A stretch of DNA of 64,000 nt from Bifidobacterium aquikefiri. GTDB taxonomy: Bacteria; Actinomycetota; Actinomycetes; Actinomycetales; Bifidobacteriaceae. The notes below the pieces were generated by a model, which did not search any database, was not told the origin of the DNA, and was given only the letters and a program-made list of their open reading frames with translations. A program made the position numbers and the translations under genes. Below are positions 7,971-41,359 of the stretch, piece by piece. Each line of letters begins with the position of its first letter. Within the stretch, counting starts at the first letter, position 1. Location: NCBI RefSeq assembly GCF_002259795.1, contig NZ_MWXA01000002.1:62001-126000 (forward strand), in the 5' to 3' direction.

Positions 7971-9494
7971 TTAATCCTCCAGCTCCCGTTGCATCGTGCG
8001 CAGCACATTCCAGCCCGAATCCAGAACGTCGAGCATTGAAGAATACGCTTGGTATTTCTTGTCATATATCGCGCTCTGCTCAGGATCTGGCGTGAATTGC
8101 TGAGCTACCTTCGTCATGTGTGCAGAGGCTTCGTTAAAGTCCTTGTAGACTCCAAGACCCACAGATGCGCAAATGGCGCCACCGAGGCCACCAAGCTCCT
8201 TGACTGCAACGGTTTCAACCGTGATGCCGAGCACGTCTGCAAACATCTGCACCCACGCCGCAGAGTTGCACGCGCCACCTGACATTCTGATTGCCGTTGG
8301 CTTGTGCTTCAACACTCGAAGCAGTTGGTCAACATGCTGGCGGTGGGCAAAGGCAACACCTTCATAGACAGCCCTGATGATCTGTGCAAAGGAATCCGAG
8401 CTGCGCATGCCAATGAGCGCACCTTCAGCCCCCAGATTCACATTGTTTCCATAGAGGAACGGGAAGAAGAGCGATGTCGAATTTCGCGCATCGGACGACG
8501 AGAGAATCTTTTCAAGCTCGTCGTATCCGATAGCCTGACGGCCATCCTTCGAAAGCATGCGAAGCATGTTGTCGAGGTTTCCCGCAGATGTAGGACTCGA
8601 GGCTTCAACCAACACATCACCTGTGGGGAACAGTGAATTCATGCAGCCACTGCTTTGCGCAGCCTTGGTCTTGCTCGGGAATACGTTGATATTCCATGTT
8701 CCTGCGGTCACGCTGAACAGGTCTTCGTCGAGAACACCTGTGGCGATTGCACAGGCATCGATATCGAACATGCCTGCGAATACAGGCGTTCCAACAGCGA
8801 TTCCCGTATTCTTCGAGGCCTGTTCGCAAATGCTTCCGCACTGATCCGTTGCACGCACCAGCTGTGGCATTGCAGGCAGCATCTCCGGGATTCCAAAGAA
8901 ATCGAAGAGCCGTGAATCGTATTCACCAGTTTCGAGATTCACCAGATTATTGCCTGATGCATCTCCCTGTTCCTCCCAGATCTCACCGGTCAGCATGAAC
9001 CGAATGAAATCCTTATTGGAAAGCACATGGCCGATCGATGCATATTTCTGCGGCTCATGATCCTTGATCCATCGCAACAGCACCGGGAACTGCATCACCA
9101 TGACATGCTGGTGGCTTATGGGATAGATCTCACCAACCCGAGCCTCAAATGCATTGGCAAGATCGGATGCTCGGCTATCAGACGAAAGGATGCAATCCAT
9201 CGAAGGCTTGCCTTCCTTATCCAACATGTACAGGCCCTTACCGTGTCCGACCGGCACTACGGCATCGATCTGGTCGCCGGTCAGACCGGCATCCATCAGT
9301 GACGAGTTCGTGGCCTTGCCGATATCTCTCCACATCTGCTGCGGATTGACTTCACGGAATCCAGGTCTTCCCTCCACTGCATCTGTTGGGAACGAAACCA
9401 CAGACAACTGATTGCCCGTTTCATCAAGAATGATGACCTTGGTATTGGTTCCACCATTGTCGATGACGAGAAAATGCTTATGCTCCATTGACAT
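7971..9494 (-). CDS. FGGY-family carbohydrate kinase, probably L-xylulokinase
   Basis: A 507-residue sugar kinase with the ATPase fold. The phosphate-1 motif is near the N-terminus (VIDNGGTNTKVIIL), and the C-terminal FGGY signature region includes RMSGGACNSAAWVQMFADVLG. Sequence and neighbours fit the LyxK / L-xylulose kinase branch: the next two genes are the 3- and 4-epimerases that process L-xylulose 5-phosphate. L-ribulokinase is an alternative, but AraB proteins are longer. ATG at 9494 follows AGGAG at good spacing. It is the second gene of the operon behind the GatC-like transporter, which suggests that the imported sugar arrives unphosphorylated. Confidence 0.88.
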   Translation of the reverse strand: MSMEHKHFLVIDNGGTNTKVIILDETGNQLSVVSFPTDAVEGRPGFREVNPQQMWRDIGKATNSSLMDAGLTGDQIDAVVPVGHGKGLYMLDKEGKPSMDCILSSDSRASDLANAFEARVGEIYPISHQHVMVMQFPVLLRWIKDHEPQKYASIGHVLSNKDFIRFMLTGEIWEEQGDASGNNLVNLETGEYDSRLFDFFGIPEMLPAMPQLVRATDQCGSICEQASKNTGIAVGTPVFAGMFDIDACAIATGVLDEDLFSVTAGTWNINVFPSKTKAAQSSGCMNSLFPTGDVLVEASSPTSAGNLDNMLRMLSKDGRQAIGYDELEKILSSSDARNSTSLFFPFLYGNNVNLGAEGALIGMRSSDSFAQIIRAVYEGVAFAHRQHVDQLLRVLKHKPTAIRMSGGACNSAAWVQMFADVLGITVETVAVKELGGLGGAICASVGLGVYKDFNEASAHMTKVAQQFTPDPEQSAIYDKKYQAYSSMLDVLDSGWNVLRTMQRELED

Positions 9495-9521
9495 ACCTAT
9501 CTCCTTATGCAGATTTCAATA

Positions 9522-10781
9522 TCAGATCAAATTGAAGAGTTTGCCGGCCTCGACGGCAATCCAGCCGACCCAGCCGCTGACGGCACCGGTCATGTTGGAT
9601 ATGCCCGTGAAGTCTGCAGGGAGCTTGATATTGCTCGTTACAGCGGACTGCGTAACGTACGGTGCGATATATGAACCAACGTAAAGAATGATGACGATGC
9701 TGATCGCTCCTGTTATGAGCATCTTGAACATGTTTCTGCGCACGAATGGGGTGACCAGCGCGAGCAGGAAGGTAAGGGATGCAAGATCTGCGAATGGGAG
9801 CATCCTGTTGCCAGGAAGTATGAGCGCGAGCACGATTGCGACAGGAATCAGCAGCAGACCAGAGGCGAGAACCGATGGCTCACCAATGAGCAGCGCAGTA
9901 TCCATGCCGATGAAGAACTCTCTGTTCGGGAACCATTTCTTCAGCTGCTTCTCGGCTGCATCACGCACGGTAATCAGACCTTCGAGCAACACGCCAATCA
10001 TCTTTGGCAGCAGCACCATGGCAGCCGCGACGTTGATGGCGAGGCTGATGGCCTTCGCAGGCGAATATGCAGCGAGAATTCCAATGATCAGACCAAGGAT
10101 AAAGCCCAGGACTACTGGCTCGCCAAAGGCGCCGAAACGCTTTTGGATCTTCTCCGCGTTGAAGTCCACCTTCTTGAGTCCAGGAATTCTATCGATCACC
10201 CAGTTCACACCAATGGCCAATGGAGACCACATCATGCCGGCAAGGTGCGGGAACGAAATGCCCGAGAGTTTGTATTCCTTCTGGATGTAAGGCGCAGACC
10301 AATCGGCAACCTTGAGCACGATGGCGAATATGATCCAGACGAAAACGGTCGAGAACCAGAAGTTCTTCGTGACGGCGAATACCGTCGCTCCAACCTGCAG
10401 GAAGATCCAGTAGTTGAAGATATCGACATCAACGGTCTTCGTCAGCTTCAAAACAACCATGATTGCGTTGATTATCAGAAAACCGACAACGACTGCGGCC
10501 ATGATAGGCGTGCCCCAGCCAATCGTCGAGGCTGTTGGCCAACCGACATCGACCACCGTCAGGTGCATGCCCAGGCGATTGACCATCGCCTTGGATGCGG
10601 GCCCGAGGTTGTCGAGCAGCAGGTTGATGACCATATTGACGCCAACAAAACCGACACCAACCGTCATGCCGGCCTTGAACGATTTTCCGATGCCGAGCCT
10701 AAATATCAGGCCGACGACAAAGAAGATTATAGGCATCATCACAGCTGCGCCCAAACCTATTATTGTATTGATGACACTCAT
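9522..10781 (-). CDS. PTS galactitol-family EIIC-like transporter (GatC), without EIIA/EIIB genes
   Basis: A 419-residue polytopic membrane protein with ten or more hydrophobic segments, matching the galactitol-family EIIC component. Typical segments are VNMVINLLLDNLGPASKAM, GWPTASTIGWGTP and GEPSVLASGLLLIP. No EIIA or EIIB gene lies in the operon. The next gene instead encodes a sugar kinase followed by two epimerases. I infer that it works either as a facilitator for an unphosphorylated pentulose or pentitol, or with EIIA/EIIB encoded elsewhere. ATG at 10781 follows AAAGGG. It is the first gene of the operon and is controlled from the region shared with the SorC regulator. Confidence 0.88.
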   Translation of the reverse strand: MSVINTIIGLGAAVMMPIIFFVVGLIFRLGIGKSFKAGMTVGVGFVGVNMVINLLLDNLGPASKAMVNRLGMHLTVVDVGWPTASTIGWGTPIMAAVVVGFLIINAIMVVLKLTKTVDVDIFNYWIFLQVGATVFAVTKNFWFSTVFVWIIFAIVLKVADWSAPYIQKEYKLSGISFPHLAGMMWSPLAIGVNWVIDRIPGLKKVDFNAEKIQKRFGAFGEPVVLGFILGLIIGILAAYSPAKAISLAINVAAAMVLLPKMIGVLLEGLITVRDAAEKQLKKWFPNREFFIGMDTALLIGEPSVLASGLLLIPVAIVLALILPGNRMLPFADLASLTFLLALVTPFVRRNMFKMLITGAISIVIILYVGSYIAPYVTQSAVTSNIKLPADFTGISNMTGAVSGWVGWIAVEAGKLFNLI

Positions 10782-25899: not shown

Positions 25900-27654
25900 C
25901 TATCGTGCAAGCTGCTGATCGTTTGCGTTGTGAGATGTTTTCTGCTCGCCTGTGCCCGAAACTTTCCACGCTTCAGTCACCGCGTCAACGGGCATCGTGT
26001 CCAGATCGATTTTCGGATCAATCTGCTGTGTGGCGAGTATTTCTGAGGCCTCTTGGGCCGAAGATACGGCCGGCATCGAACCCATGAGGTTCTTTCCGGC
26101 AGTTTCAGGAAGGAACAGGATGGCGATTCCGCCAATCACTGAGAACAGCATCACATAGAACGCAGGCATATAGGCGTTGCCAGTCAACTCGATCAATCCC
26201 TGCACGAAGAATGGTGTGGTGCCACCAAAAAGTGAAACACCAACGTTATAGGTGATGGCCATTCCTCCGAAACGTGAAGCTGTCGGGAAAAGTGCCGGAA
26301 GCGCCGAGGCAATCACACTGATATAACCGGCAACCGGCAGTGCAAGCATGATGAGCGAAAGATGCATGGCAAGCGAATTGCCCGAATTGATGAGCATGAA
26401 TGCAGGAATCACCGCGGCCACAGCAATCACCGCGGATGTGACGAACACAGGCTTTCTTCCATAGCGATCCGAAAGACGGCCGGCGAACGGCATCAGGATT
26501 GTTATGAGCACCAGTACTGGAATCGTGGCCATGGCTGAATTGGTGGTGCTTTCGCCAAGTTCATGTGAAAGATATGTTGGCATGTAGCTTGTCAGAATGT
26601 ATCCAAGTGTGTTGCCTGCTGCGACGAGTGCGATGCCAAGAAGAATCTCCTTGTGGAAATGTTTGAAAACGCCACGAAGCGAATGCGTGGCGAATATGCG
26701 TTCATCGCGTTGCTTCGGTCCAACGATGGAGAAGCGCCAACGCCCTCGCTTGGATATTCTCGGTTTGCTCATGTCAACATCAGGATCTTCAAGCTCGAAA
26801 TGAGGAGTCTCAGGTATTCGAGACCGGAAGTACACCGCGATGACCCCAAGAGGAATCGCCAGGAAATATGGGATTCGCCAAGCCCAGTTCACCATCGCGT
26901 CAATACCCCAGTAGTGTTCGGAAATGGCGGTCGTGACCGCCACCGCGCCTGCACCGACGGCGAAACCAAGATACGAACCGACATCAAGCCATGAACTGAA
27001 GAACCCTCGGCGTCTGTCTGGAGAGAACTCGGACACATATGTCGCTGCTCCTGCATATTCACCGCCTGTGGAGAAACCTTGGATCATCTTGAGAACATAC
27101 AGAGGCACCGGTGCCCATAGACCGATCTGCGCCGCAGAAGGCAGGGCCCCGATCAACGATGTGGAGACTGCCATCACCGACATGGTGATGAACAGCACCT
27201 TCTGCCGGCCGATTCTATCGCCCAATGGCCCGAGAATGAATCCTCCGAGAGGACGAGCCAGGAAGCTCACCGCAAAGCCCAGCAACATTATCAGAACGCC
27301 CAGCGAATTCGGAATGCCTTTGGTGAAGACGGTCGTCATCACCACCGTCAGATAGCCATAAATGCCGAAATCGAACCATTCCATGAAATTGCCCACCGAA
27401 GTGCCAAGCACTGCCTGCTTGACGGAATCCTCCTCGACCATAACGATGTCATCTCGTTGAAGATTTCTGGGTCGTGGGAAGGGGAAGCGAATGCGATGAT
27501 GCTTCCTTGTGCGATCCGATTTCGCGACCTTTCTTTCCTCCTCTGCTTGCCTTGTCTGCGTTTCCTTCTGAGTGGCCGATCTCGCTGCAGCCATCGAAGC
27601 TTCGGAAGAGGTTTTCATACCATGTGACGTTCGTGTAGTTGACTTGCTGTGCAT
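25900..27654 (-). CDS. MHS-family MFS transporter (ProP / metabolite:H+ symporter-like)
   Basis: A 584-residue twelve-helix transporter. The MHS marks are GNFMEWFDFGIYGYL, GPLGDRIGRQKVL and STGGEYAGAATYVSEF in the first half, with GRLSDRYGRKPVF in the second. Relatives move proline, betaine, shikimate, citrate or other carboxylates; the substrate here is unknown. A basic, Ser/Thr-rich extension of about 70 residues precedes the first helix. The ATG at 27654 has a good AAGGA site, so this extension is probably real. The gene is divergent from the lactonase-like gene and is not linked to an obvious pathway. Confidence 0.93.
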   Translation of the reverse strand: MHSKSTTRTSHGMKTSSEASMAAARSATQKETQTRQAEEERKVAKSDRTRKHHRIRFPFPRPRNLQRDDIVMVEEDSVKQAVLGTSVGNFMEWFDFGIYGYLTVVMTTVFTKGIPNSLGVLIMLLGFAVSFLARPLGGFILGPLGDRIGRQKVLFITMSVMAVSTSLIGALPSAAQIGLWAPVPLYVLKMIQGFSTGGEYAGAATYVSEFSPDRRRGFFSSWLDVGSYLGFAVGAGAVAVTTAISEHYWGIDAMVNWAWRIPYFLAIPLGVIAVYFRSRIPETPHFELEDPDVDMSKPRISKRGRWRFSIVGPKQRDERIFATHSLRGVFKHFHKEILLGIALVAAGNTLGYILTSYMPTYLSHELGESTTNSAMATIPVLVLITILMPFAGRLSDRYGRKPVFVTSAVIAVAAVIPAFMLINSGNSLAMHLSLIMLALPVAGYISVIASALPALFPTASRFGGMAITYNVGVSLFGGTTPFFVQGLIELTGNAYMPAFYVMLFSVIGGIAILFLPETAGKNLMGSMPAVSSAQEASEILATQQIDPKIDLDTMPVDAVTEAWKVSGTGEQKTSHNANDQQLAR

Positions 27655-29280: not shown

Positions 29281-30141
29281 TCACCGACGGGATGCATAGT
29301 TCTCCAGCTCTCTGAGTTTGTCAAAACGCTGATTGATCGTATCGATTCGACTCCGGGATGCATCCACATTCTCACCTTGCTGAGCGCTGGTTGCCACATA
29401 ATCGGCGATCAGTGCAAGCACACTGAATACGGCCGTGTAGCTTGAGAGCACATGAGAGTGGAGATCGGTCTCAATGAATTGCGCATCTGCTTCGAGTGCG
29501 GTTCGACGAACTGTAGAATCGCCGATGATGATGAGTTGCACATGCTGTTCCGCAAGCGTTGTGGCAAGATTGTGGAACACTGCCGTGCGTCTGCGCGCTC
29601 CAAAGAGGATTGCAACGTCCTCCTTGTTCAAATCCACTATCTCTTCGGCCAGGCTTTGCCCCGGCTCTGGAAGCGCCTGCACCCTTGCCCGTGACTGCAT
29701 CAGTTGCTCACGTAGGTGCAGGGCCATCGGATAGTTATTTCGCAGCCCAATGACTGCAACATTTCTGGCCTTCATAATCGATTGAGCAATTCGATCCATC
29801 GTGGCGTTGTCGAGTCGGCTGAAGGTGTGCTGCAGCGCGGCGACATCGTTGTTCATATGATCGACCAACAGACCCCTGGTGGTTTCTCCCTGGCTGAGGA
29901 ACTCAGGCGATCCGGGTTGATGATGCCTTCGTATATCACGCTTGAATTCCGCTGCATTGCGAAACCCTATCTTACGGTACAGGCGGCTTAGGGTTGGCTG
30001 AGAGACCTTGGAGAGCTTGGAGAGTTCCGCCGAGTTCAAAAGGAGCGCATCCGAAAGATGCCCAAGAATGAACATCGCTGCGTCTTGCTCAGCTGCTGTA
30101 AGTGAATCGTAATTTTCCTGTATACGCTCAACTATGCTCAT
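29281..30141 (-). CDS. RpiR-family transcriptional regulator (HTH plus SIS domain)
   Basis: About 286 residues. The N-terminal HTH_6 domain (LTAAEQDAAMFILGHL, LSKVSQPTLSRLYRKIGF) precedes a SIS sugar-phosphate-isomerase-like domain (VAVIGLRNNYPMALHLREQL, VAILFGARRRTAVFHNLA). ATG at 30141 is used; a GTG three codons upstream is an alternative. It is divergent from the allantoin operon, with palindromic sites in between, so it is the probable regulator of that operon (inference). RpiR proteins usually sense small phosphorylated sugars, but this one may sense a purine-breakdown intermediate such as allantoin, allantoate or glyoxylate. Confidence 0.92.
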   Translation of the reverse strand: MSIVERIQENYDSLTAAEQDAAMFILGHLSDALLLNSAELSKLSKVSQPTLSRLYRKIGFRNAAEFKRDIRRHHQPGSPEFLSQGETTRGLLVDHMNNDVAALQHTFSRLDNATMDRIAQSIMKARNVAVIGLRNNYPMALHLREQLMQSRARVQALPEPGQSLAEEIVDLNKEDVAILFGARRRTAVFHNLATTLAEQHVQLIIIGDSTVRRTALEADAQFIETDLHSHVLSSYTAVFSVLALIADYVATSAQQGENVDASRSRIDTINQRFDKLRELENYASRR

Positions 30142-30519
30142 CACCCTCACATCTTACAATGGTGGCCGCCTTTGAACACTGCCCCAGATCATGAGCTGGC
30201 GACTTGCGCACCCGCATGTGCTGCCCGGCAGAGCAGCAGCAGGCACCAAGTAACGAATATTTCCGATCCTTTACCAATAGGTTTCCACATATAAGTGACT
30301 TTGACACCAAATGTTCCGTCTCGCACAATTACGTAACGAAATAGAAATTTCAGAATATAAGTTCTGAAACAAATATTTCAGATAGTGAATCCGTCATCAC
30401 ACGTTGAGCTTCAAGATATACAGCAATCGGTTCAATTCACTAAGTTCTCACTGAAATTGAAATTTCCACACCCTCTGCCGTCAACCATCGCAGAAGCTCG
30501 CTTGGCAAGGAGAACAGAC
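30142..30519. other. Divergent control region between RpiR regulator and allantoin operon
   Basis: This A+T-rich stretch of about 380 bases contains no gene. It holds a strong inverted repeat (listed separately) and several further TTTC / GAAA half-site arrangements, for example GAAAC-aaata-TTTC near 30366 and GAAATTTC near 30344 and 30458. Confidence 0.6.
30348..30369. promoter_or_regulatory. Candidate RpiR operator upstream of the allantoin operon
   Basis: TTTCAGAA (30348-30355) and TTCTGAAA (30362-30369) are perfect 8-bp arms around a six-base spacer. RpiR-family sites are often such AT-rich palindromes. The position, about 150 bases upstream of the permease start and near the RpiR gene, fits control of both directions. 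A related arrangement, GAAATAATTGTTTC, occurs before the aminotransferase gene near 32865. Confidence 0.55.
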
Positions 30520-32088
30520 ATGACTTCAATATCAGTTGAAGAAGGAATACAACACAGTCACACAACCCCGCAAGATGAGGTGATCATCAAAAGCGACTAC
30601 GATGCACGTCTGGCCAATTCGGATCTCGCACCACTCAAGAAACAGACGTGGTCTTGGTACAACATTTTCGCATTCTGGATGTCAGACGTTCATTCCGTGG
30701 GTGGATATGTGACCGCAGGAAGCCTCTTCGCACTGGGTATAGCAAGCTGGCAGGTGCTGCTCGCACTCATTGTGGGAATCGTCATCGTTCAGGTTTTCGT
30801 CAATCTGGTTGCAAAACCAAGCCAAAGCATGGGTGTCCCATTCCCCGTCACCACCCGATTCGTATTCGGCGTCAAGGGTGCCAACATTCCCGCAATCATC
30901 AGAGGAATCATCGCCGTGGCATGGTACGGCGTCCAGACATTCCTTGCATCCGAATCGTTGAACATCGTATTTCTGAAATTCATTCCCTCATCCCAGACCC
31001 TTGCGACGGACTATAAGTTCCTTGGGCTGTCTGCACTCGGCTGAATCTCGTATGGAATCCTATGGATCGCACAGACCTGCGTCTTCTGGAAGGGTATGAA
31101 CGCCATCCGCAAATTCATCGACTGGGCGGGCCCACTCGTGTATGCAGTCATGTTCATTCTCGCCGTCTACCTCGTTATCGAGGCCGGAGGCATCAGCCAC
31201 ATCAACCTCAATCTCTCATCCGGCAAGCCACTGAGCTTCATGCAGTCAATCCCAGTCATCATCACCGCGATTGCACTGGTCGTGTCGTACTTTGCAGGAC
31301 CCATGCTGAACTTCGGCGATTTTTCAAGGTACTCGCACACCTACAAGAGCGTCAAGAAGGGTAACTTCTGGGGACTCCCCGTCAACTTCCTCGTCTTCTC
31401 ACTGCTCACCGTCATCTGCGCCTCGGCAACGGAACCCGTGTTCGGCAAACTCATCACCGACCCAATCGAAACCGTTGAACAGATCGGCGCTCCAGTTGCA
31501 ATTCTTCTTGGAGGCTTGACCTTCGTCATTGCAACCGTGGGCATCAACATCGTTGCAAACTTTGTTTCACCGGCATTCGACTTCTCACACGTCAATCCTC
31601 AGAAGATCAGCTGGCGCGCAGGTGGCATGATCGCCGCAATCGGATCGGTCGTCATCACCCCATGGAACTGGTACGCAAACGATCAGGCAATCCACTACAC
31701 GCTCGACCTTCTCGGATCGCTGATTGGACCACTCTTCGGCATTCTGATCGCCGGGTATTTCACCATCTCAAAGCAGCTCGTAGCCGTTGACGACATGTTC
31801 ACGATGAGTCCGAAAGGACACTACTGGTATCACAAGGGATTCAACCCCAATGCAGTGCTTGCACTCGCCATCGCCGGTGTCATCTCGGTCGCAAGCGCCA
31901 TCGCCCCTTCGCCTCTTAAGCAGCTTGGACTCTTCGACATCACATGGATTTCCAACTTCAGCTGGTTCATCGGCGCTGGCTTGGGATATGTTCTGTTCGT
32001 GATCCTCGAACGGAGGAATCCACAGATGCCACAGCTGGATGCCGCTTCGCCAGACGTCAACAACGGCGCTCTGCCGGCAAATAATTGA
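30520..32088 (+). pseudogene. NCS1-family allantoin/nucleobase permease, interrupted by an in-frame TGA
   Basis: Read as one frame this encodes a normal-length NCS1 permease (about 522 codons, twelve predicted helices) of the purine/cytosine/allantoin transporter family. It begins at ATG 30520 after AGGAG. Codon 175, at 31042-31044, is TGA. The frame continues intact on both sides: GLSALG, stop, ISYGILWIAQ, then AGPMLNFGDFSRYSH, ICASATEPVFG and WNWYANDQAIHYTL. Trp occupies this kind of position in many relatives, so one G-to-A change (TGG to TGA) explains it. As it stands, only the first quarter (174 residues) is made from this start. Restart at ATG 31096 is possible but would lack the first helices. 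Confidence 0.9.
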
Positions 32089-32115: not shown

Positions 32116-32862
32116 ATGAAAATCAAGGTAATCAACCCGAATACAACCGAAGCGATGACGCAGTCCATCAAGCACGCTGCGCTATTGGTAGCAGAAGATG
32201 GCACAACCATCGAGGCAGTGAGCCCAAGGATGGGACCCGTGTCCATTGAGAGTCACTATGACGAAGCTCTTGCCAGTCTCGGTGTACTTGACGAGATTCG
32301 CCGAGGTGAAGACGAAGGCACAGATTCGTATGTGATTGCATGCTTTGGAGATCCAGGGCTCGACGCAGCCAGAGAGTTGACGTCCGCTCCGGTTCTCGGC
32401 ATTGCTGAAGCGGCGTTTCATGCAGCCAGCTTCACCGGCAGATCATTCGGCATAGTCACCACACTGTCTCGAACATTGGGCAGGGCAAGGGACTTGGTTG
32501 ATGCCTATGGATTTTCAAAGCTCTGTGTGAGCTACGCAGCCTGTGAAATACCCGTTCTCGCTCTTGAGAACGACCCGCAGACCTGCTATCGCAAGCTGGA
32601 GACCGAATCAAAGAAGGTGCTTGCCGAATCCGGCGCAGATTCCATCGTTCTGGGCTGCGCCGGCATGGCCGGAATGTGCCAACGCCTTACCGAAGCGCTG
32701 CATGTTCCTGTGATTGACGGTGTTGAGGCCGCTGTATCACTCGCTCAGGCTTTGGTGAGAATGAAGATACGTACAAGCACCACGGGAGAATTCGCACTTC
32801 CTCCGGCAAAGCCTGTCGTTGGGCTGTTGCAACCGTTCACTCTGGATGGGGCAGATTCATGA
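32116..32862 (+). CDS. Allantoin/hydantoin racemase (Asp/Glu racemase superfamily)
   Basis: A 248-residue enzyme beginning MKIKVINPNTTEAMT, the hallmark of HyuE/HpxA-type hydantoin racemases. The two catalytic cysteines of the superfamily are visible in VIACFGDPGLDAARE and IVLGCAGMAGMC. Such enzymes interconvert (R)- and (S)-allantoin, so that a stereospecific allantoinase can use both. It begins 27 bases after the permease gene, in the same operon as allantoinase and allantoate amidohydrolase, which favours allantoin over other hydantoins as substrate. Nothing looks damaged. Confidence 0.92.
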   Translation: MKIKVINPNTTEAMTQSIKHAALLVAEDGTTIEAVSPRMGPVSIESHYDEALASLGVLDEIRRGEDEGTDSYVIACFGDPGLDAARELTSAPVLGIAEAAFHAASFTGRSFGIVTTLSRTLGRARDLVDAYGFSKLCVSYAACEIPVLALENDPQTCYRKLETESKKVLAESGADSIVLGCAGMAGMCQRLTEALHVPVIDGVEAAVSLAQALVRMKIRTSTTGEFALPPAKPVVGLLQPFTLDGADS

Positions 32863-32962
32863 TAGAAATAATTGTTTCAAGTTGGTAATTTTTGAATAAT
32901 AAATTTCATATATGAATGATCCAGAGATTTCCTACAGAGGTTTCAAGCCCAAAGGAGAGGTT

Positions 32963-34240
32963 ATGAGCGCAGAGTCCAATGAAAATATCAATGCAGAAGT
33001 CATGCAGGTGGAACCTTTGAACCCACCGCATCGTTTGCTTATGGCACCGGGACCGGTGAATGTCGACCCACGAGTATTGAGTGCGATGTCACAGCCTACG
33101 GTCGGACAGTTCGACCCATACATGTTCAAGGTCATGGGCGAAGTTCAGCTCATGCTGCGTGCGATTTTCAAAACAACCAACAAACAGACATTCGTCGTTG
33201 ACGGAACGTCACGTTCAGCAATCGAAGCCGCCTTCGTCTCCGTGCTTGCGCCAGGCGACAAGGTGTTGGTCTGCTGCGCCGGACGCTTCGGGATGCTTCT
33301 CAAGGAGATTGCCCAACGGTGCAAGGCTGAGACCCATGTTATCGAGCGCCCGTGGGGTGAAGTCTTCAGCATCGACGAAATCGCCGATGCGATCAGGCGC
33401 ATTCACCCAAAACTTGTAGCCACGGTTCATGGAGACACATCGACGACCATGCTGCAACCACTCGAAGGACTCGGTGAGATCTGCCACGAGAATGGCGCAT
33501 TGCTCTTCACCGATGCAACCGCTTCACTAGCCGGCAACGAGCTGAAAACCGACGAATGGCAGATCGACATCGTCACTGCCGGGATGCAGAAATGCCTGGG
33601 AGCTTCATCGGGCATGGCTCCAATCACCATTTCTGAGCGAGCGGTCGCAGTGATGGATGAACGCAAAAGCATTGAGGCCGGCATAGCCGACACCAGCGAA
33701 GAGATACAGAACAACCGCATTAACAGCAACTACTTCGATCTGCCACAGATCATCGACTATTGGGGACCGCGGCATCTCAATCACCACACCGAGGCCACAC
33801 ACCTGCTCTATGGAGTGCACGAGGCTACCCGAATCATCGCTGAAGAGGGAATAGATCATGTGATCGAACGCCATCAAATCAACGGACTTGCAATGTCAAC
33901 CGCACTGCTAAAGATGGGCCTGAAACTGTATGGAGATCAGCAAACGCGAATGAACGACGTCATAGGCGTAGTCATTCCAGACGGTCTTCATGACACGGCA
34001 ATCCGTTCACAACTGCTTGAGGAGTTCGGCGTTGAAATCGCGTCCTCATTCGGCCCACTGCAAGGCAAAATCTGGCGAATCGGAGTCATGGCGTGGAATG
34101 CCCGGAAGGATGCAGTACTCACGGCCGCATCGGCTTTGGGCACGGTTCTCAATCAAAACGGCGCGAAACTTGACATTCAGAAGGGCATTGATGCAGCTTC
34201 CGCCATCTACGCCCAGTCAGAGAAAGAGAGCAAGGCATGA
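32963..34240 (+). CDS. pucG: (S)-ureidoglycine-glyoxylate aminotransferase
   Basis: A 425-residue PLP enzyme of the class V aminotransferase fold, most like Bacillus PucG. It transfers the amino group of (S)-ureidoglycine to glyoxylate, giving glycine and oxalurate. Motifs seen are LMAPGPVNVDPRVLSAM near the N-terminus, the cofactor-binding FVVDGTSRSAIEA, TVHGDTSTTM and the PLP lysine in TAGMQKCLGASSG. ATG at 32963 follows GGAGAGG; a longer reading to 32912 is unlikely. The gene overlaps the next one by four bases. Alanine-glyoxylate or serine-pyruvate aminotransferases share the fold, but the allantoin context points to PucG. Confidence 0.92.
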   Translation: MSAESNENINAEVMQVEPLNPPHRLLMAPGPVNVDPRVLSAMSQPTVGQFDPYMFKVMGEVQLMLRAIFKTTNKQTFVVDGTSRSAIEAAFVSVLAPGDKVLVCCAGRFGMLLKEIAQRCKAETHVIERPWGEVFSIDEIADAIRRIHPKLVATVHGDTSTTMLQPLEGLGEICHENGALLFTDATASLAGNELKTDEWQIDIVTAGMQKCLGASSGMAPITISERAVAVMDERKSIEAGIADTSEEIQNNRINSNYFDLPQIIDYWGPRHLNHHTEATHLLYGVHEATRIIAEEGIDHVIERHQINGLAMSTALLKMGLKLYGDQQTRMNDVIGVVIPDGLHDTAIRSQLLEEFGVEIASSFGPLQGKIWRIGVMAWNARKDAVLTAASALGTVLNQNGAKLDIQKGIDAASAIYAQSEKESKA

Positions 34241-35589
34241 AGGCATCGCTGAAGGAAACGACGAGGGAAACAACGCGGGAAACGACAACGGATTCCCTGG
34301 ATTCGGCTCTGGCACTCTCGCATCCATATGGCAGACCAAGTGAATGGGCAAGCAGCGAGGCCGGCATCATCATGGATCGCTGCGACCAGCTTGCCGGATT
34401 CTCTCAGATGAAACACGGCATTGAACGCACCTATCTTTCACCAGAGATGAAGAGTGCATACCAGCTCACGGGCTCATGGATGAAGGAAGCGGGTTTGACG
34501 GTCCATATCGACCCGGCCGGCAATCTTGTGGGCAAAGTCGAAGGGCGCGAAAATGGTCTTCCGGCACTCGTTCTTGGCTCACACCTTGACAGCGTGCCCG
34601 ATGCCGGACGATATGACGGCATCCTTGGTGTCGTCTCTGCAATTGCTGTAGCGAAACGGCTAACTACCAGTGGACTGATGAACAGGCTGCCCTTCTCACT
34701 GGAAGTCGTGGGATTCGGAGATGAAGAGGGTGCACGCTTTGGAGCCACTCTTCTCGGTTCGTATGCCCTTGCGGGCAGTTGGAATCGCGAATGGCTCAAT
34801 CTCAAGGACGCCGACGGCATCAGCATGAGAGAGGCATTCCTCGACTTTGGGCTTGACCCTGACGATGTCGGCAAGGCAGCCTTGAGCCCTGCAGATGCCT
34901 TTGGCTATATGGAGCTCCACATTGAACAGGGACCTATTCTTGAGTCTCGTGACAGATCCTTGTCTTTCGTGTCTTCCATTGCAGCTGCATCGCGATATGT
35001 CATAACAGTAACCGGGGAATCTCGGCACATTGCCACCCCATACAACCTGAGAAGGGATGCTCTTACCGCCGCCGCAGAGATGATTGAAAGCATCGATCGT
35101 ATCAGCCGTGAGGCAGGGGCAAGATCCAACGTTGGCGAAATCTCCGCCTTCCCGGGCGGCGTGAATGTGATTGCCGGTACAACGACGTTCAGCCTCGACG
35201 TGCGGGCGGGCACCGATGACATACGTGATTCGACATTGGCCGCGATGTGGAACGCCATCGATACCATCTGCACATCCCGTAAGGTCAGCGTGGAAAGAAA
35301 GCTCATTCACACCGCGAGTGCGGTAACTTGCGATACTCAATTGCGCTCATGCATCGCCGAAGGCATCGAGAAGGCTGAGGGCAAGGATGCCTTTGGTCTG
35401 GTAAGCTTCCCCGGGCATGATGGCATGGCCGTTTCCGACTTGCTTCCCATTGCCATGCTGTATGTACGCTGCAAGGGAGGCATCAGCCACAGTCCTGATG
35501 AATCCGTGAGAGACATCGATGTCGCCCTTGGCATCGATGCATTTGAGCAGGCTGTGGAAACGCTCGCCGCTCGATTCGATCAAGCTTAG
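34237..35589 (+). CDS. Allantoate amidohydrolase (M20 family)
   Basis: A 450-residue binuclear metallohydrolase that turns allantoate into ureidoglycine, ammonia and CO2. Metal ligands of the family are seen in VLGSHLDSVPDAGRYDGILG, GFGDEEGARF and YMELHIEQGP, plus a late GGISHSPDE. The segment that in relatives reads H-A-G-T-x-P is altered here to ESRHIATPYNLRRDA; the His is kept. The start codon overlaps the pucG stop (ATGA). The first 20 residues include a threefold ETT(R/T) repeat encoded by 12-bp repeats. N-carbamoyl-amino-acid hydrolase (HyuC) is the nearest alternative. Confidence 0.92.
   Translation: MKASLKETTRETTRETTTDSLDSALALSHPYGRPSEWASSEAGIIMDRCDQLAGFSQMKHGIERTYLSPEMKSAYQLTGSWMKEAGLTVHIDPAGNLVGKVEGRENGLPALVLGSHLDSVPDAGRYDGILGVVSAIAVAKRLTTSGLMNRLPFSLEVVGFGDEEGARFGATLLGSYALAGSWNREWLNLKDADGISMREAFLDFGLDPDDVGKAALSPADAFGYMELHIEQGPILESRDRSLSFVSSIAAASRYVITVTGESRHIATPYNLRRDALTAAAEMIESIDRISREAGARSNVGEISAFPGGVNVIAGTTTFSLDVRAGTDDIRDSTLAAMWNAIDTICTSRKVSVERKLIHTASAVTCDTQLRSCIAEGIEKAEGKDAFGLVSFPGHDGMAVSDLLPIAMLYVRCKGGISHSPDESVRDIDVALGIDAFEQAVETLAARFDQA
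34255..34290. repeat. Three imperfect 12-bp tandem repeats at the start of the allantoate amidohydrolase gene
   Basis: GAAACGACGAGG, GAAACAACGCGG and GAAACGACAACG follow each other in frame and encode ETTR-ETTR-ETTT. They enlarge a disordered N-terminal tail and do not reach the catalytic domain. Confidence 0.85.
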
Positions 35590-35627: not shown

Positions 35628-36968
35628 ATGCATAATAACGATGACGGTTCCGCTCGAACTGCCGACGAAGTCTTCCGAGGCAAGATACTGATCAATGGTG
35701 TTGTCTCTCAAGCTTCAGTTGGCATCACTGGCGAAACGATAAGCCAGGTTTGCGAAGATCCTGCCGGGAGCATTGCATCGAAGCGAGAAACGTTGCTCAG
35801 TGATGATGAGGTGCTCATTCCTGGCGTGGTGGATACCCATGTACACATCAATGAGCCAGGGCGTACCGAGTGGGAAGGATTCGACTATGCCACGCGAGCA
35901 GCGGCATACGGTGGCATCACCACGGTCATCGACATGCCTCTCAACAGCAATCCACCAACGTTAAGTGTTGATGCACTCGAACTCAAACAATCGATCGCGG
36001 CAGGCAAAGCCTATACGCAACTCGGTTTTTGGGGAGGCGTGGACGGTTCGAATCTTGGTCATCTCAAACCACTCTGGGATGCTGGAGTATTCGGATTCAA
36101 GGCGTTCCTCTCCCCCAGCGGGGTCGAAGAATATGGCTCACTCTCATTTGATCAGCTCGAAGATGCCATGCGGGAGATAGCCGATTTCGGAGGTCAACTC
36201 ATCATTCATGCGGAAGAACCGGATGAATTGATGACGGACCCCACAAAAATCGGTCAGAGCTATCGCAGCTTCGCTGAATCCCGACCCGCCAAGAGCGAAA
36301 GCGATGCGGTGGAACATGTGATGAAGCTGGTCGAGCGCACTGGTTGCAAAACTCATATTCTGCATGTTTCCAGCGGTCTGACGGTGTCCGTTCTTGCCGA
36401 TGCGAAGGCCAGCGGATTGCCAGTCACAGCGGAAACCTGTCCTCATTACCTCACTCTGGACTGCGACCACATCCCCGACGGCAATACTGCGTTTAAATGC
36501 TGCCCACCGATTCGAAGTCTCCAGGAACAGAACAAGCTGTGGGAAGGTCTGGTGGACGGCACGATTGACATGGTGGTGACAGACCATTCTCCAACGACCG
36601 CTCGTATGAAGGCGGGAACACTCGCCTCTGCCTGGGGTGGGGTTTCGAGCTTACAAGTCGGATTCCGTGCCGTACTCACCTCAGCCATGCAACGAGGTCT
36701 AGGTCTTGCGGATGTGATTCGCTGGATGTCGACCAATAGCTCTGCATTTGTAGAATTACATGATCGCGGATCCATCACCGTCGGCAATAGGGCCGATCTC
36801 GTTGTACTCAAACCTCAGGAGCATTTCATTGTCGATGCTGCCAAGCTCAGTAGCCGCAATCCAATCAGTGCCTTTGACGGCAAGGATCTTCAGGGGGTGG
36901 TCGTTCGTACACTCATTGGCGGGGCAGAGCCGACTGCAAGCAGGGAACATTTGATTCTGAGAAAATAA
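35628..36968 (+). CDS. allB: Allantoinase
   Basis: A 446-residue cyclic amidohydrolase that opens the hydantoin ring of allantoin to allantoate. Metal-site motifs are VDTHVHINEPGRTEWEGF near residue 70, the lysine region FGFKAFLSPSG, IIHAEEPDE, THILHVSSG and the catalytic Asp in VVTDHSPTT. The TEWEGF sequence after the first histidines is typical of allantoinase rather than dihydropyrimidinase. ATG at 35628 has a GGAGG site six bases upstream. It is unusual that the gene for the first ring-opening step lies behind those of later steps, but all are in one operon. Confidence 0.95.
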   Translation: MHNNDDGSARTADEVFRGKILINGVVSQASVGITGETISQVCEDPAGSIASKRETLLSDDEVLIPGVVDTHVHINEPGRTEWEGFDYATRAAAYGGITTVIDMPLNSNPPTLSVDALELKQSIAAGKAYTQLGFWGGVDGSNLGHLKPLWDAGVFGFKAFLSPSGVEEYGSLSFDQLEDAMREIADFGGQLIIHAEEPDELMTDPTKIGQSYRSFAESRPAKSESDAVEHVMKLVERTGCKTHILHVSSGLTVSVLADAKASGLPVTAETCPHYLTLDCDHIPDGNTAFKCCPPIRSLQEQNKLWEGLVDGTIDMVVTDHSPTTARMKAGTLASAWGGVSSLQVGFRAVLTSAMQRGLGLADVIRWMSTNSSAFVELHDRGSITVGNRADLVVLKPQEHFIVDAAKLSSRNPISAFDGKDLQGVVVRTLIGGAEPTASREHLILRK

Positions 36969-36996: not shown

Positions 36997-38370
36997 ATGG
37001 AGCAGGCCATGAATGGATCAAGTAGACAGGATTGCAAAGCAGATCGTACTCTGCAACCATCCGAAGATGTGTCAGCGAGGATGCCCGATTTGTCTTCCGC
37101 TCCCGATCACGAAGCTGCGGGTGGCCCTCATTCTCAGCAATCGCAAGACCATAAATTCATAGATCCCAGCGTCTGGCGAATTGTGGGGAATCCTCTTGTC
37201 CCCCCAGTGCACGATGGTCCCCTGCACGACTTGGGCGTTGCAGTCAAGGATCTCTTTGCCGTTCAAGGTTTTGCCATCGGTGCCGGTAATCCGAAGTTCC
37301 TCAGCGAAGCGCGCATACAGAAGAATCACGCATCGGCAGTTCGTTCATTGCTTGAAGCGGGGGCTCACGTGGTCGGCATCGCTCAAACCGATGAATTCGC
37401 CTATTCGTTGTCAGGGGTCAACATCCACTATGGGGCTGCACCCAATCCATCCGCACCTGGCAGAATCAGTGGGGGTTCCTCTTCAGGACCCGCAACTGCG
37501 GTGTCAGGCGGGCAGGCAGAGATTGGGCTCGGCACAGATACGGCAGGCTCGATTCGCGTACCTGCCGCCTATCAGGGATTATGGGGCATTCGCACCTCTA
37601 CGGGCAGAATTCAGCGGGACGGTGTTCATCCGCTCTCACCGTCCTTTGACACGGTAGGCATCCTTGCCAGGGATGCGCACACACTTGCCATCGCCGCAGA
37701 GCAACTCATGCCGGAACCGGATAGAGCCGCACCAGCCGGCGTGAAGACAGACGTGCTGTTGGATTCCTGTGTTGACGAGGATGTTCGAATCGCATTTTCA
37801 CAATGGCGTTCCACAGCGCTTCGCAATCTTCACACTCACGATTGCGAAATCCACGATTCTACAATCACAGCCAATTCGGGTGAGCTTGCAATCACACACG
37901 ACATGCTTGATGCCTGGCTCACCATATTCAATACCGTGCGGGGTTACGAAGCATGGAAGGCACATGGTGGGTGGGTCAGCAACCATTGGAATGATATGGA
38001 TCCACAGATTGCATCACGTTTTGAACGCGACATGCACATCACCGCGGAAGATTATGAGAATTTCTGCGTCACCTTTGCCGATGCCAGAGCCGAGATCAGG
38101 AATCTCCTCGGCAACCATCTCCTTCTTATTCCAACCGTCAGCTGTGTCGCACCGCTCGCCGGAGATTCCGACGAGAGCATCCAGGCAATCGCGCACGCCA
38201 GAGCCGAAACCATGCTATTGACGACAATCGCCGGCATCGCAGGCTTGCCGGCAGTGAACATTCCGATAAGGACCAAGGCAGGCTTGCCCTGCGGCGCATG
38301 TCTCATTGGCCCCTCAGGTTCGGACAAGGGCGTAATCGCCGCAGCCGAGCACCTGGCCAAGAATGTGTGA
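36997..38370 (+). CDS. Amidase-signature hydrolase, possible oxalurate/ureido-compound hydrolase
   Basis: A 457-residue amidase-signature enzyme with an intact Ser-Ser-Lys triad: Lys84 in VAVKDLF, the cis-Ser in GGSSSGPA (about 161) and the nucleophile in DTAGSIRVP (Ser185). About 50 low-complexity residues precede the domain. It is the last gene of the allantoin operon, 28 bases after allB. PucG yields oxalurate, for which no dedicated hydrolase or oxamate carbamoyltransferase gene is present here, so this amidase may act on oxalurate or a related ureido compound (inference). AtzE/AtzF-like or glutamyl-tRNA amidotransferase-like activity are alternatives. Amidase sequences predict substrates poorly. 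Confidence 0.88.
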   Translation: MEQAMNGSSRQDCKADRTLQPSEDVSARMPDLSSAPDHEAAGGPHSQQSQDHKFIDPSVWRIVGNPLVPPVHDGPLHDLGVAVKDLFAVQGFAIGAGNPKFLSEARIQKNHASAVRSLLEAGAHVVGIAQTDEFAYSLSGVNIHYGAAPNPSAPGRISGGSSSGPATAVSGGQAEIGLGTDTAGSIRVPAAYQGLWGIRTSTGRIQRDGVHPLSPSFDTVGILARDAHTLAIAAEQLMPEPDRAAPAGVKTDVLLDSCVDEDVRIAFSQWRSTALRNLHTHDCEIHDSTITANSGELAITHDMLDAWLTIFNTVRGYEAWKAHGGWVSNHWNDMDPQIASRFERDMHITAEDYENFCVTFADARAEIRNLLGNHLLLIPTVSCVAPLAGDSDESIQAIAHARAETMLLTTIAGIAGLPAVNIPIRTKAGLPCGACLIGPSGSDKGVIAAAEHLAKNV

Positions 38371-38538: not shown

Positions 38539-39402
38539 ATGACCTTGTCTCCCTCGTTCGCCGACCAGCCGTTGCCCACCCGCAAGTCGCATGATGGATT
38601 GGTTCTGCCCGCGATTGGCTTTGGCACCTACAAGCTGCGCGGTAACAATGACGTGAAATCGATTGTTTCCGCGCTTGATGCCGGCTATCGTCTGCTCGAC
38701 AGCGCCGTCCGATACGAAAACGAAGGCACAGTCGGACAGGCTGTCCAGCTCAGCTCAGTCTCCCGCGAAGACATTATCGTGACCTCGAAGCTGCCCGGAA
38801 AGTATCAGTCCTTCGATGACGCTCTGGCAACCGTGCAGGAGAGCCTGATGCGTACTCACCTCGAATACATTGACCTGTATATGATCCACTGGCCAAATCC
38901 GCTCGAGGATCATTACGTTGACGCCTGGAGAGGTCTGATCGAGGCAAAAAAGCGCGGTTTGGTACATCATATCGGCGTGAGCAACTTCCTTCCGGAACAT
39001 ATACAACGCTTGGTTGCCGAGACAGGAGTCGCACCTTGCGTCAACCAGATCCAGCTTCATCCCTATCTGCAGCAGCGGGAGATCAAGGCATTCGATGATC
39101 GCAATGACATTATCACCGAGGCTTGGAGTCCGCTCCGCCGTATGCGTGAGACGCTGAACGACCCAACAATCGTAGAAATTGCAGAGAAACACCATGCCAA
39201 TCCCGCTCAGGTCGTATTGCGCTGGCACGTAGACAATGGTGATGTACCGATTCCAAAGTCGCAGAATCCAAAGCGCCAACTCGAGAACCTCGATGTCATG
39301 GGATTCGAATTCGACGACGAAGACCGCAGACAATTGGCCAGTCTCGACAGCCCGAACGGCAGCATGGGCGACTTCGATCCACGAACCCATCAGGAGATGT
39401 AG
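38539..39402 (+). CDS. Aldo/keto reductase (2,5-diketo-gluconate reductase-like)
   Basis: A 287-residue NADPH-dependent oxidoreductase with the (alpha/beta)8 fold. Family motifs: GFGTYKL, DAGYRLLDSAVRYENEGTVG (catalytic Asp and Tyr), VTSKLPGK (catalytic Lys), YMIHWPNP (His), HHIGVSNF, and the cofactor segment IPKSQNPKRQLENL near residue 240. It would reduce carbonyls of sugars or aldehydes; the substrate is not predictable. It has its own upstream region after the allantoin operon, so it is probably a separate transcript. A 9-bp tandem repeat array follows the stop. Confidence 0.93.
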   Translation: MTLSPSFADQPLPTRKSHDGLVLPAIGFGTYKLRGNNDVKSIVSALDAGYRLLDSAVRYENEGTVGQAVQLSSVSREDIIVTSKLPGKYQSFDDALATVQESLMRTHLEYIDLYMIHWPNPLEDHYVDAWRGLIEAKKRGLVHHIGVSNFLPEHIQRLVAETGVAPCVNQIQLHPYLQQREIKAFDDRNDIITEAWSPLRRMRETLNDPTIVEIAEKHHANPAQVVLRWHVDNGDVPIPKSQNPKRQLENLDVMGFEFDDEDRRQLASLDSPNGSMGDFDPRTHQEM

Positions 39403-39430
39403 GGCAAATACCCTTACACGCCATTCCGAA

Positions 39431-39493
39431 CCGCTACAGCCGCTACAGCCGCTACAGCCACTACAGCCACTACAGCCACTACAGCCACTACAG
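39431..39493. repeat. Seven 9-bp tandem repeats between reductase and DUF4186 genes
   Basis: Three units of ccgctacag are followed by four of ccactacag, ending at caagg. The array lies downstream of the aldo/keto reductase stop and contains the stop codon of the oppositely oriented DUF4186 gene (TAG at 39488-39490 on the reverse strand). It is a microsatellite-like array, not a CRISPR. Confidence 0.95.
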
Positions 39494-39910
39494 CAAGGTA
39501 AGCTGTTCGGCCTCGTGACTTGCCGCTTGCACCGGGTGTTCACGCATGTCGCGCTCTATCCAGGCCATGATGACAGCCGAAAGATGGTTGATTTCGTCTG
39601 GTGTAAGCTCATGACCTTTGGGAATGCCGTACCAGCGCTCCATACACGTTCTGCAGCATGTGCCTGTCGCATGCTGCGCGGTGAAGACTGGATGTCCTCG
39701 ATACGGTGTCTGCTTACCGTCCTTTACAGGGAAAGCAGCACCAACGCGAGTACCCAACATGTCATGAGCATGCCGGTCGATGGTGTCCAGACCCTTGCTC
39801 CGTGCATAGGCTCTATCTTTTACACTCAGCGTAAAGCTCGCACGAAACTTTGATTTTGCGAGCTTTGCCAGCATCCCCTGAACCCATTGAGTGTCATATT
39901 TCGGCTGCAT
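39488..39910 (-). CDS. DUF4186 domain-containing protein
   Basis: About 140 residues matching DUF4186: KSKFRASFTLSVKDRAYA, DTIDRHAHDML and the highly conserved KQTPYRGHPVFTAQHATGTCCRTCMERWYGIPKG, quoted in parts as GHPVFTAQHATGTCC then CMERWYGI. His and Cys residues suggest metal binding. The function is unknown. The start is uncertain: ATG at 39910 gives the usual family length and has GGAG very close by, ATG at 39937 is an alternative, and an open frame extends to 40078. The C-terminus runs into the 9-bp repeat array, which supplies the stop codon. It is divergent from cfa. Confidence 0.87.
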   Translation of the reverse strand: MQPKYDTQWVQGMLAKLAKSKFRASFTLSVKDRAYARSKGLDTIDRHAHDMLGTRVGAAFPVKDGKQTPYRGHPVFTAQHATGTCCRTCMERWYGIPKGHELTPDEINHLSAVIMAWIERDMREHPVQAASHEAEQLTLL

Positions 39911-40066: not shown

Positions 40067-41359
40067 ATGGCGAAGCATAGAATGAATGTTGCAGAAATGG
40101 TTGAGGCATTTGTCGATCCCGACGCGCCTCTACAGGTCACCGCGTTCGACGGTTCCCATTTTGGCAGTGACGATGCACAACTTCATCTTGAAGTCCGCAA
40201 TTCACGGGCTGTATATTATATATTCGAAAATCCGAACGATCTGGGACTCGCCCGCGCATATCTGCAGGGCGACATCGCTTCTCCAGAACTCACGCCCGGA
40301 GACCCCTATGAGGTGTTCAAGCAATTGGAGGAACTGCAAGCTCAGTTCCACAAGCCAACGGCAGCGACCTTGGCAAACATCACCTCGTCGATTCTTTCAC
40401 ACGGGTTCCACGTTCCCAAGCCACCTCAGATCGAACTGCCATCCGTGGCCAGGCGCATCAGCGAGGGCATTTTGCCACATACCAAAAAGGGCGATGCAAC
40501 TACAGTCAGCTATCACTACGATCTGAGCAACGAGTTCTACAATCTCTTCCTCGGTCCTTCAATGACCTACACCTGCGCCTGCTTCGACAAGGAAGACGAC
40601 TCACTCGAAAAGGCAGAATACAACAAGCTGAACCTTGTGCTTGACAAGCTGAACCTTAAGTCCGGCGACTATCTGCTGGATATCGGCTGCGGCTGGGGCT
40701 CAATGGAGGTCACCGCCGCAAAGCGCGGCATCCACGTTATCGGCGTCACCCTGTCAGAGGAGCAAGTACAGTGGGCAAATGATTGGATTCGCAAAGAGGG
40801 TCTTGAAGATCTGGCCGAAGTCCGACTCGAGGATTATCGCGATATTCCTGAGTCCGGTTTCGATGGAATCTGCTCGCTTGGCATGATGGAGCACGTTGGG
40901 CATAAGCATTATCCCGCCTACTTCAAGGAAATGCTTGAGAAGCTGCGTCCAGGCGGCATGTTGCTGAATCATCAGATCACACGGACGAATTCACATCAGG
41001 GCAAGCGTGCGGGCGGCTTCATTGACCGTTACATCTTCCCCGATGGTGAACTCGCAAGCCCAGGTGAGATCGAATACGTGATCAACAATGTGGGTTTCGA
41101 AGTCATCAACCAGGAGAATCTTCGCCAGCATTATGCCCTGACCCTGATGAACTGGAACAAGAACCTTCAGCGTAACTGGAAAAAGGCCGTCGACATGGTC
41201 GGAGAGCAAAAGGCACGCCTCTGGGGCGTGTATATGGCAGGCTCACGCTTCAACTTCGAAATGAACACAATCCAGATACATCAGTTCCTCTGCATCAAGC
41301 CAGACCCTGAAACCGGAACGACGACGTACCCGCTCCGCCCATGGTGGCCGCGGCACTGA
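40067..41359 (+). CDS. cfa: Cyclopropane-fatty-acyl-phospholipid synthase
   Basis: A 430-residue SAM-dependent enzyme that adds a methylene across cis double bonds of membrane phospholipids. The SAM-binding motif LLDIGCGWGSMEVTAA is near residue 205. Family segments VSYHYDLSNEFYNLFLGPSMTYTCACF, GVTLSEEQVQWA, SLGMMEHVGHKHYPAYF and DRYIFPDGELAS are present, here cited in parts. Membranes with cyclopropane acids are known in bifidobacteria and lactobacilli, and they resist acid and cold. The gene stands alone and ends at a strong hairpin. The N-terminal lipid-contact domain is complete. Confidence 0.95.
   Translation: MAKHRMNVAEMVEAFVDPDAPLQVTAFDGSHFGSDDAQLHLEVRNSRAVYYIFENPNDLGLARAYLQGDIASPELTPGDPYEVFKQLEELQAQFHKPTAATLANITSSILSHGFHVPKPPQIELPSVARRISEGILPHTKKGDATTVSYHYDLSNEFYNLFLGPSMTYTCACFDKEDDSLEKAEYNKLNLVLDKLNLKSGDYLLDIGCGWGSMEVTAAKRGIHVIGVTLSEEQVQWANDWIRKEGLEDLAEVRLEDYRDIPESGFDGICSLGMMEHVGHKHYPAYFKEMLEKLRPGGMLLNHQITRTNSHQGKRAGGFIDRYIFPDGELASPGEIEYVINNVGFEVINQENLRQHYALTLMNWNKNLQRNWKKAVDMVGEQKARLWGVYMAGSRFNFEMNTIQIHQFLCIKPDPETGTTTYPLRPWWPRH

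Follow-up and report, generated by a model that had tools for sequence, protein, structure and literature searches.

A single in-frame TGA interrupts the NCS1-type permease gene of an allantoin operon in a Bifidobacterium aquikefiri strain

The window analysed here is a 64,000-nucleotide stretch of the Bifidobacterium aquikefiri genome that carries an allantoin degradation operon on its forward strand. The first gene of the operon encodes a permease of the NCS1 family, and its reading frame extends from the ATG at 30520 to 32088 (+), covering 1569 bases with the final stop (522 codons plus final stop). This frame contains one internal stop, a TGA at 31042-31044 (+) that occupies codon 175. The interruption, described in the initial annotation with the same frame length and codon number, was thus confirmed in the sequence.

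The five genes downstream of the permease, which had been reported as intact, are all open. They encode a member of the Asp/Glu/hydantoin racemase family that is probably an allantoin racemase (32116-32862, +), a class-V aminotransferase probably of the ureidoglycine-glyoxylate aminotransferase type (32912-34240, +), an allantoate amidohydrolase (34237-35589, +), the allantoinase AllB (35628-36968, +) and an amidase family protein (36997-38370, +). The allantoinase (TIGR03178, 479.2 bits against a cut-off of 357.85) and the allantoate amidohydrolase (NF006775, 479.6 bits, barely over the cut-off of 479) both exceeded their curated cut-offs, which identifies the cluster as an allantoin degradation operon. 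The racemase, aminotransferase and amidase were recognised by profile matches, and their pathway roles are proposed from genomic context and general knowledge.

Upstream lies a gene for an RpiR-type regulator (29281-30150, -), which is divergent from the operon. The intergenic region between this gene and the permease contains GAAAT..ATTTC repeats at 30338-30382, with several similar elements within 30252-30469, and these are a possible operator of the regulator. A gene for a ProP-like MFS transporter (25900-27654, -) is found near the operon, beyond the regulator and a lactonase-family gene. Directly behind the operon is an aldo/keto reductase gene (38539-39494), located in a part of the window that could not be aligned to the closest genome compared that has the permease gene (G018; 2,359,920 bases, one contig), and a 9-base tandem repeat of 6.8 copies follows at 39434-39494. 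Scans for promoters and terminators were uninformative, with 3 promoter matches (1.9 expected) and 2 terminator matches (1.6 expected).

The two halves of the permease frame each matched the family profile PF02133 separately and in collinear order (109.6 and 173.4 bits; cut-off 23.5). Residues 40-166 correspond to profile positions 5-129 and the second half to positions 143-440, bearing out the earlier observation that protein similarity continues across the stop. A search of the whole genome recovered the same gene as a single match over profile positions 5-440 of 440 (287.5 bits), with one TGA inside. The frame is 98% identical to the intact copy in G018, collinear and gap-free. Its 522 residues, the homology along nearly its whole length and the gap-free collinearity with the intact copy together argue that the frame did not arise by chance. 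In the intact copy the interrupted position falls within a hydrophobic segment (residues 167-185) that corresponds approximately to transmembrane helix 4. The hydantoin permease Mhp1 (2jln) aligns over residues 42-466 and, by manual count, the stop site lies near Mhp1 residue 146.

Downstream of the stop, the frame is open from the first ATG for 330 amino acids (31096-32088, +), offering a possible restart; no sign of a working transporter was found in this product. A designed restart at ATG 31096 was considered and rejected. The purine-rich stretch before this codon is probably plain coding sequence, since it lies very close to the ATG and codes for residues shared with G018.

To place the stop among relatives, codon 175 was compared across loci L003-L014, L023 and L029-L108, with 13 weak matches (L015-L022 and L024-L028) and the window's own copies set aside. 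A sense codon was present in all 93 relatives compared (81 Trp and 12 Tyr), a set whose named-collection part consists of the best 80 of 285 relatives and whose loci are not all independent, some unnamed and named loci possibly representing one genome. We infer that codon 175 was ancestrally Trp. Three of the 93 loci (L092, L098 and L105) have one stop each elsewhere in the aligned permease stretch. Permease matches at E ≤1e-40 were detected in 16 of 189 family genomes, 12 of them close (at least 77%, this genome counted) and four distant (23-25%). Among the 12 genomes with a close permease, this genome alone has an internal stop. Likewise, the permeases of other bifidobacterial allantoin operons, with named loci including those of B. 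subtile, B. tibiigranuli, B. callitrichos, B. ruminantium and B. moukalabense, have no internal stop. A check for close relatives sharing the stop, proposed with the initial annotation, therefore found none among the relatives examined (93 loci and the 11 other close family permeases), and the idea of a stop common to relatives was rejected.

Comparison with G018 gave dN/dS values for the permease of 0.020 before the stop (dS 0.76) and 0.023 after it (dS 0.49). The five downstream genes ranged from 0.062 to 0.170, the regulator and the lactonase-family gene gave 0.043 and 0.239, and a putative cyclopropane-fatty-acid-synthase homologue at 40067-41359 gave 0.021; the row for the ProP-like MFS transporter was set aside as it compares no ortholog. 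Within the operon, constraint is thus strongest on the permease. Its 11 residue differences from G018 comprise six assigned to this lineage, three to that of G018 and two to either, giving six to eight here. Neutral evolution along the whole branch would be expected to yield ~240-420 changes, taking branch dS as 0.2-0.35, which are assumed values around half of the total. The 95% bounds on six or eight residue changes restrict neutrality to at most ~3-6% of the branch, and the loosest count, in which all 15 nonsynonymous base differences are put on this lineage, restricts it to 6-10%. With dN/dS of ~0.02 and so few replacement changes, the permease must have experienced strong selection until very recently. 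These same data rule out an old pseudogene. The stop is young, or else it is an error. Conservation of both halves as in a living gene would be equally expected from a base-call error or from tolerated read-through, and each of these was weighed.

The initial annotation had left loss in the strain and sequencing error side by side. If the draft were wrong at this position, through base calling or assembly, the strain's permease would be intact, in agreement with the undiminished conservation before and after the stop and the dN/dS of ~0.02. The window's assembly comprises 2,408,364 bases in 18 contigs and was built with MIRA, the kind of draft in which such an error might arise. Lone substitution errors are rare at ~96x MiSeq coverage. 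For B. aquikefiri LMG 28769, the sequencing details in PMC5540593 give MiSeq data at 96.25x, a MIRA assembly and 18 contigs, and this reported coverage speaks against an error.

The surrounding sequence was also examined for stops by comparing 35 G018 ORFs of at least 100 codons with the window and 35 window ORFs with G018, scoring the best match of each ORF with a syntenic partner; several of these matches are truncated at one end. None of the 34 other gene pairs of the G018-syntenic stretch has a stop within the body of the gene, and the permease stands alone. Stops appeared in five further comparisons, three of G018 frames with the window and two of window frames with G018, and these lie in frame extensions, since the reciprocal comparisons show stop-free gene bodies. 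A generally error-ridden sequence was thus not seen in the syntenic ORFs. The reported 96.25x coverage and the 34 clean gene pairs favour loss over error, and we consider an error unlikely, though it keeps a real share of the probability. The most probable interpretation, favoured with good confidence, is that the stop is genuine and arose very recently, by a nonsense mutation that changed a Trp codon of the NCS1 permease gene in the allantoin operon of one strain. The stop may be a strain polymorphism or may have arisen in culture.

Ordinary bacterial tRNA-Trp can misread UGA, and low-rate read-through of this kind would supply a little full-length permease carrying the family's usual residue. 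Trp occupies the site in 81 of the 93 relatives, and the genome encodes an ordinary tRNA-Trp (anticodon CCA). However, codon 175 is a sense codon in every relative examined, any leak would be residual at best, and we know of no programmed read-through signal at this site; read-through of this sort is very unlikely. A more elaborate form, in which the TGA persists as a leaky stop and its misreading by tRNA-Trp sets a low and perhaps regulated dose of full-length permease, with the gene under selection while the stop is in place, is likewise very unlikely.

Decoding of the TGA as selenocysteine was considered separately. Scoring of 150 of 281 first-look candidates with the tRNA-Sec model gave seven matches in the genome, the best of which (48.7; cut-off 47) was the only one above the cut-off. 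ARAGORN identified all seven as ordinary tRNAs, the best being a tRNA-Leu, and the model also matched in 14 of 14 control genomes, exceeding the cut-off in five. A search of the genome for SelA returned one partial match of 19.1 bits, under the cut-off of 22.8. With ordinary tRNAs at every match among the 150 of 281 candidates scored and SelA under its cut-off, selenocysteine at this codon is without support.

If the recent nonsense mutation is real, translation would end in approximately the fourth transmembrane helix, leaving about three helices, and the truncated product would presumably not form a working transporter. The downstream genes are open, yet the strain would probably no longer import allantoin well, and the mutation would be so young that further decay is not yet visible. 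Allantoin is assigned as the substrate from operon context, because the intact G018 copy scored below the cut-offs of the NCBIfam allantoin permease models (NF008476, 277 against 620 bits; NF047713, 230.5 against 800 bits). The same copy scored 287.9 bits with TIGR00800 (ncs1), under its cut-off of 353.1.

Two ways in which the enzymes might still be supplied had been raised in the initial annotation, namely internally made allantoin and another transporter. The first is weakened, as neither uricase (PF01014) nor HIU hydrolase (PF00576) had a match in the genome. For the second, the genome contains two NCS2-type (PF00860) permeases as well as the ProP-like MFS transporter nearby, but there is no other PF02133 match in the whole genome and no good candidate emerged. 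With no match to a second PF02133 protein, a uricase or an HIU hydrolase, the operon enzymes probably rely on allantoin taken up from the surroundings, with their dedicated importer missing. Functional replacement, in which another transporter such as the MFS protein took over and made the permease dispensable, can draw on the closeness of the MFS gene to the operon and on there being no ortholog of it found in G018, where the best match is 35% identical; yet the gene sits on the far side of the regulator and the lactonase-family gene, its product best resembles the NCBIfam models of osmolyte and metabolite:H+ symporters, in each case below the cut-off, and constraint on the permease lasted until very recently, leaving replacement scarcely credible and the MFS protein as substitute importer a speculation.

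The permease resembles the NCS1 transporters of allantoin operons (PF02133; Mhp1, 2jln) in its family match over profile positions 5-440 of 440, and is unlike them in being interrupted at codon 175 and in having its substrate assigned by context. One nonsense codon within intact surroundings is also what ordinary single-mutation pseudogenes of draft bacterial genomes present, and there is no difference in kind. The case looks like the commonplace and very recent loss of a single gene in a single strain. Annotation pipelines would probably label the gene a pseudogene. For allantoin use, the strain represents its species poorly, and growth tests limited to it could be misleading.

No description of a bifidobacterial allantoin operon was found in the titles and abstract openings of the literature searched, and words starting with 'allanto' are absent from the main text of PMC5540593 and PMC11500810. 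The whole operon exists in bifidobacteria, with a patchy distribution. The permease gene is present in two of 27 genomes of the window's genus as grouped in the search, this genome and G018. Of 189 family genomes, 12 combine a close permease with an allantoinase of near full length; allantoinase at E ≤1e-80 was detected in 13 of 189, these 12 plus G119, where the match is a fragment. In 10 of 11 family genomes (all but G119) and in G018, one stretch holds relatives of the six operon genes together with a relative of the RpiR regulator, as in the window, and a relative of the regulator is present in the stretches of all 11 and of G018. In four of the 10 (L163, L165, L166 and L167) the gene order differs from that of the window while the content is the same, with the permease and racemase placed at the far end or across the regulator. 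One stop was noted in the aligned aminotransferase stretch of each of L161, L163 and L169, and L163 has one in the amidohydrolase as well. G119 retains a relic of the operon (L159, G119:C1:1620001-1639000, 8417-10335); the 19 kb stretch around its allantoinase fragment yielded no permease, and an RpiR gene stands there beside the C-terminal part of the allantoinase (query residues 218-434).
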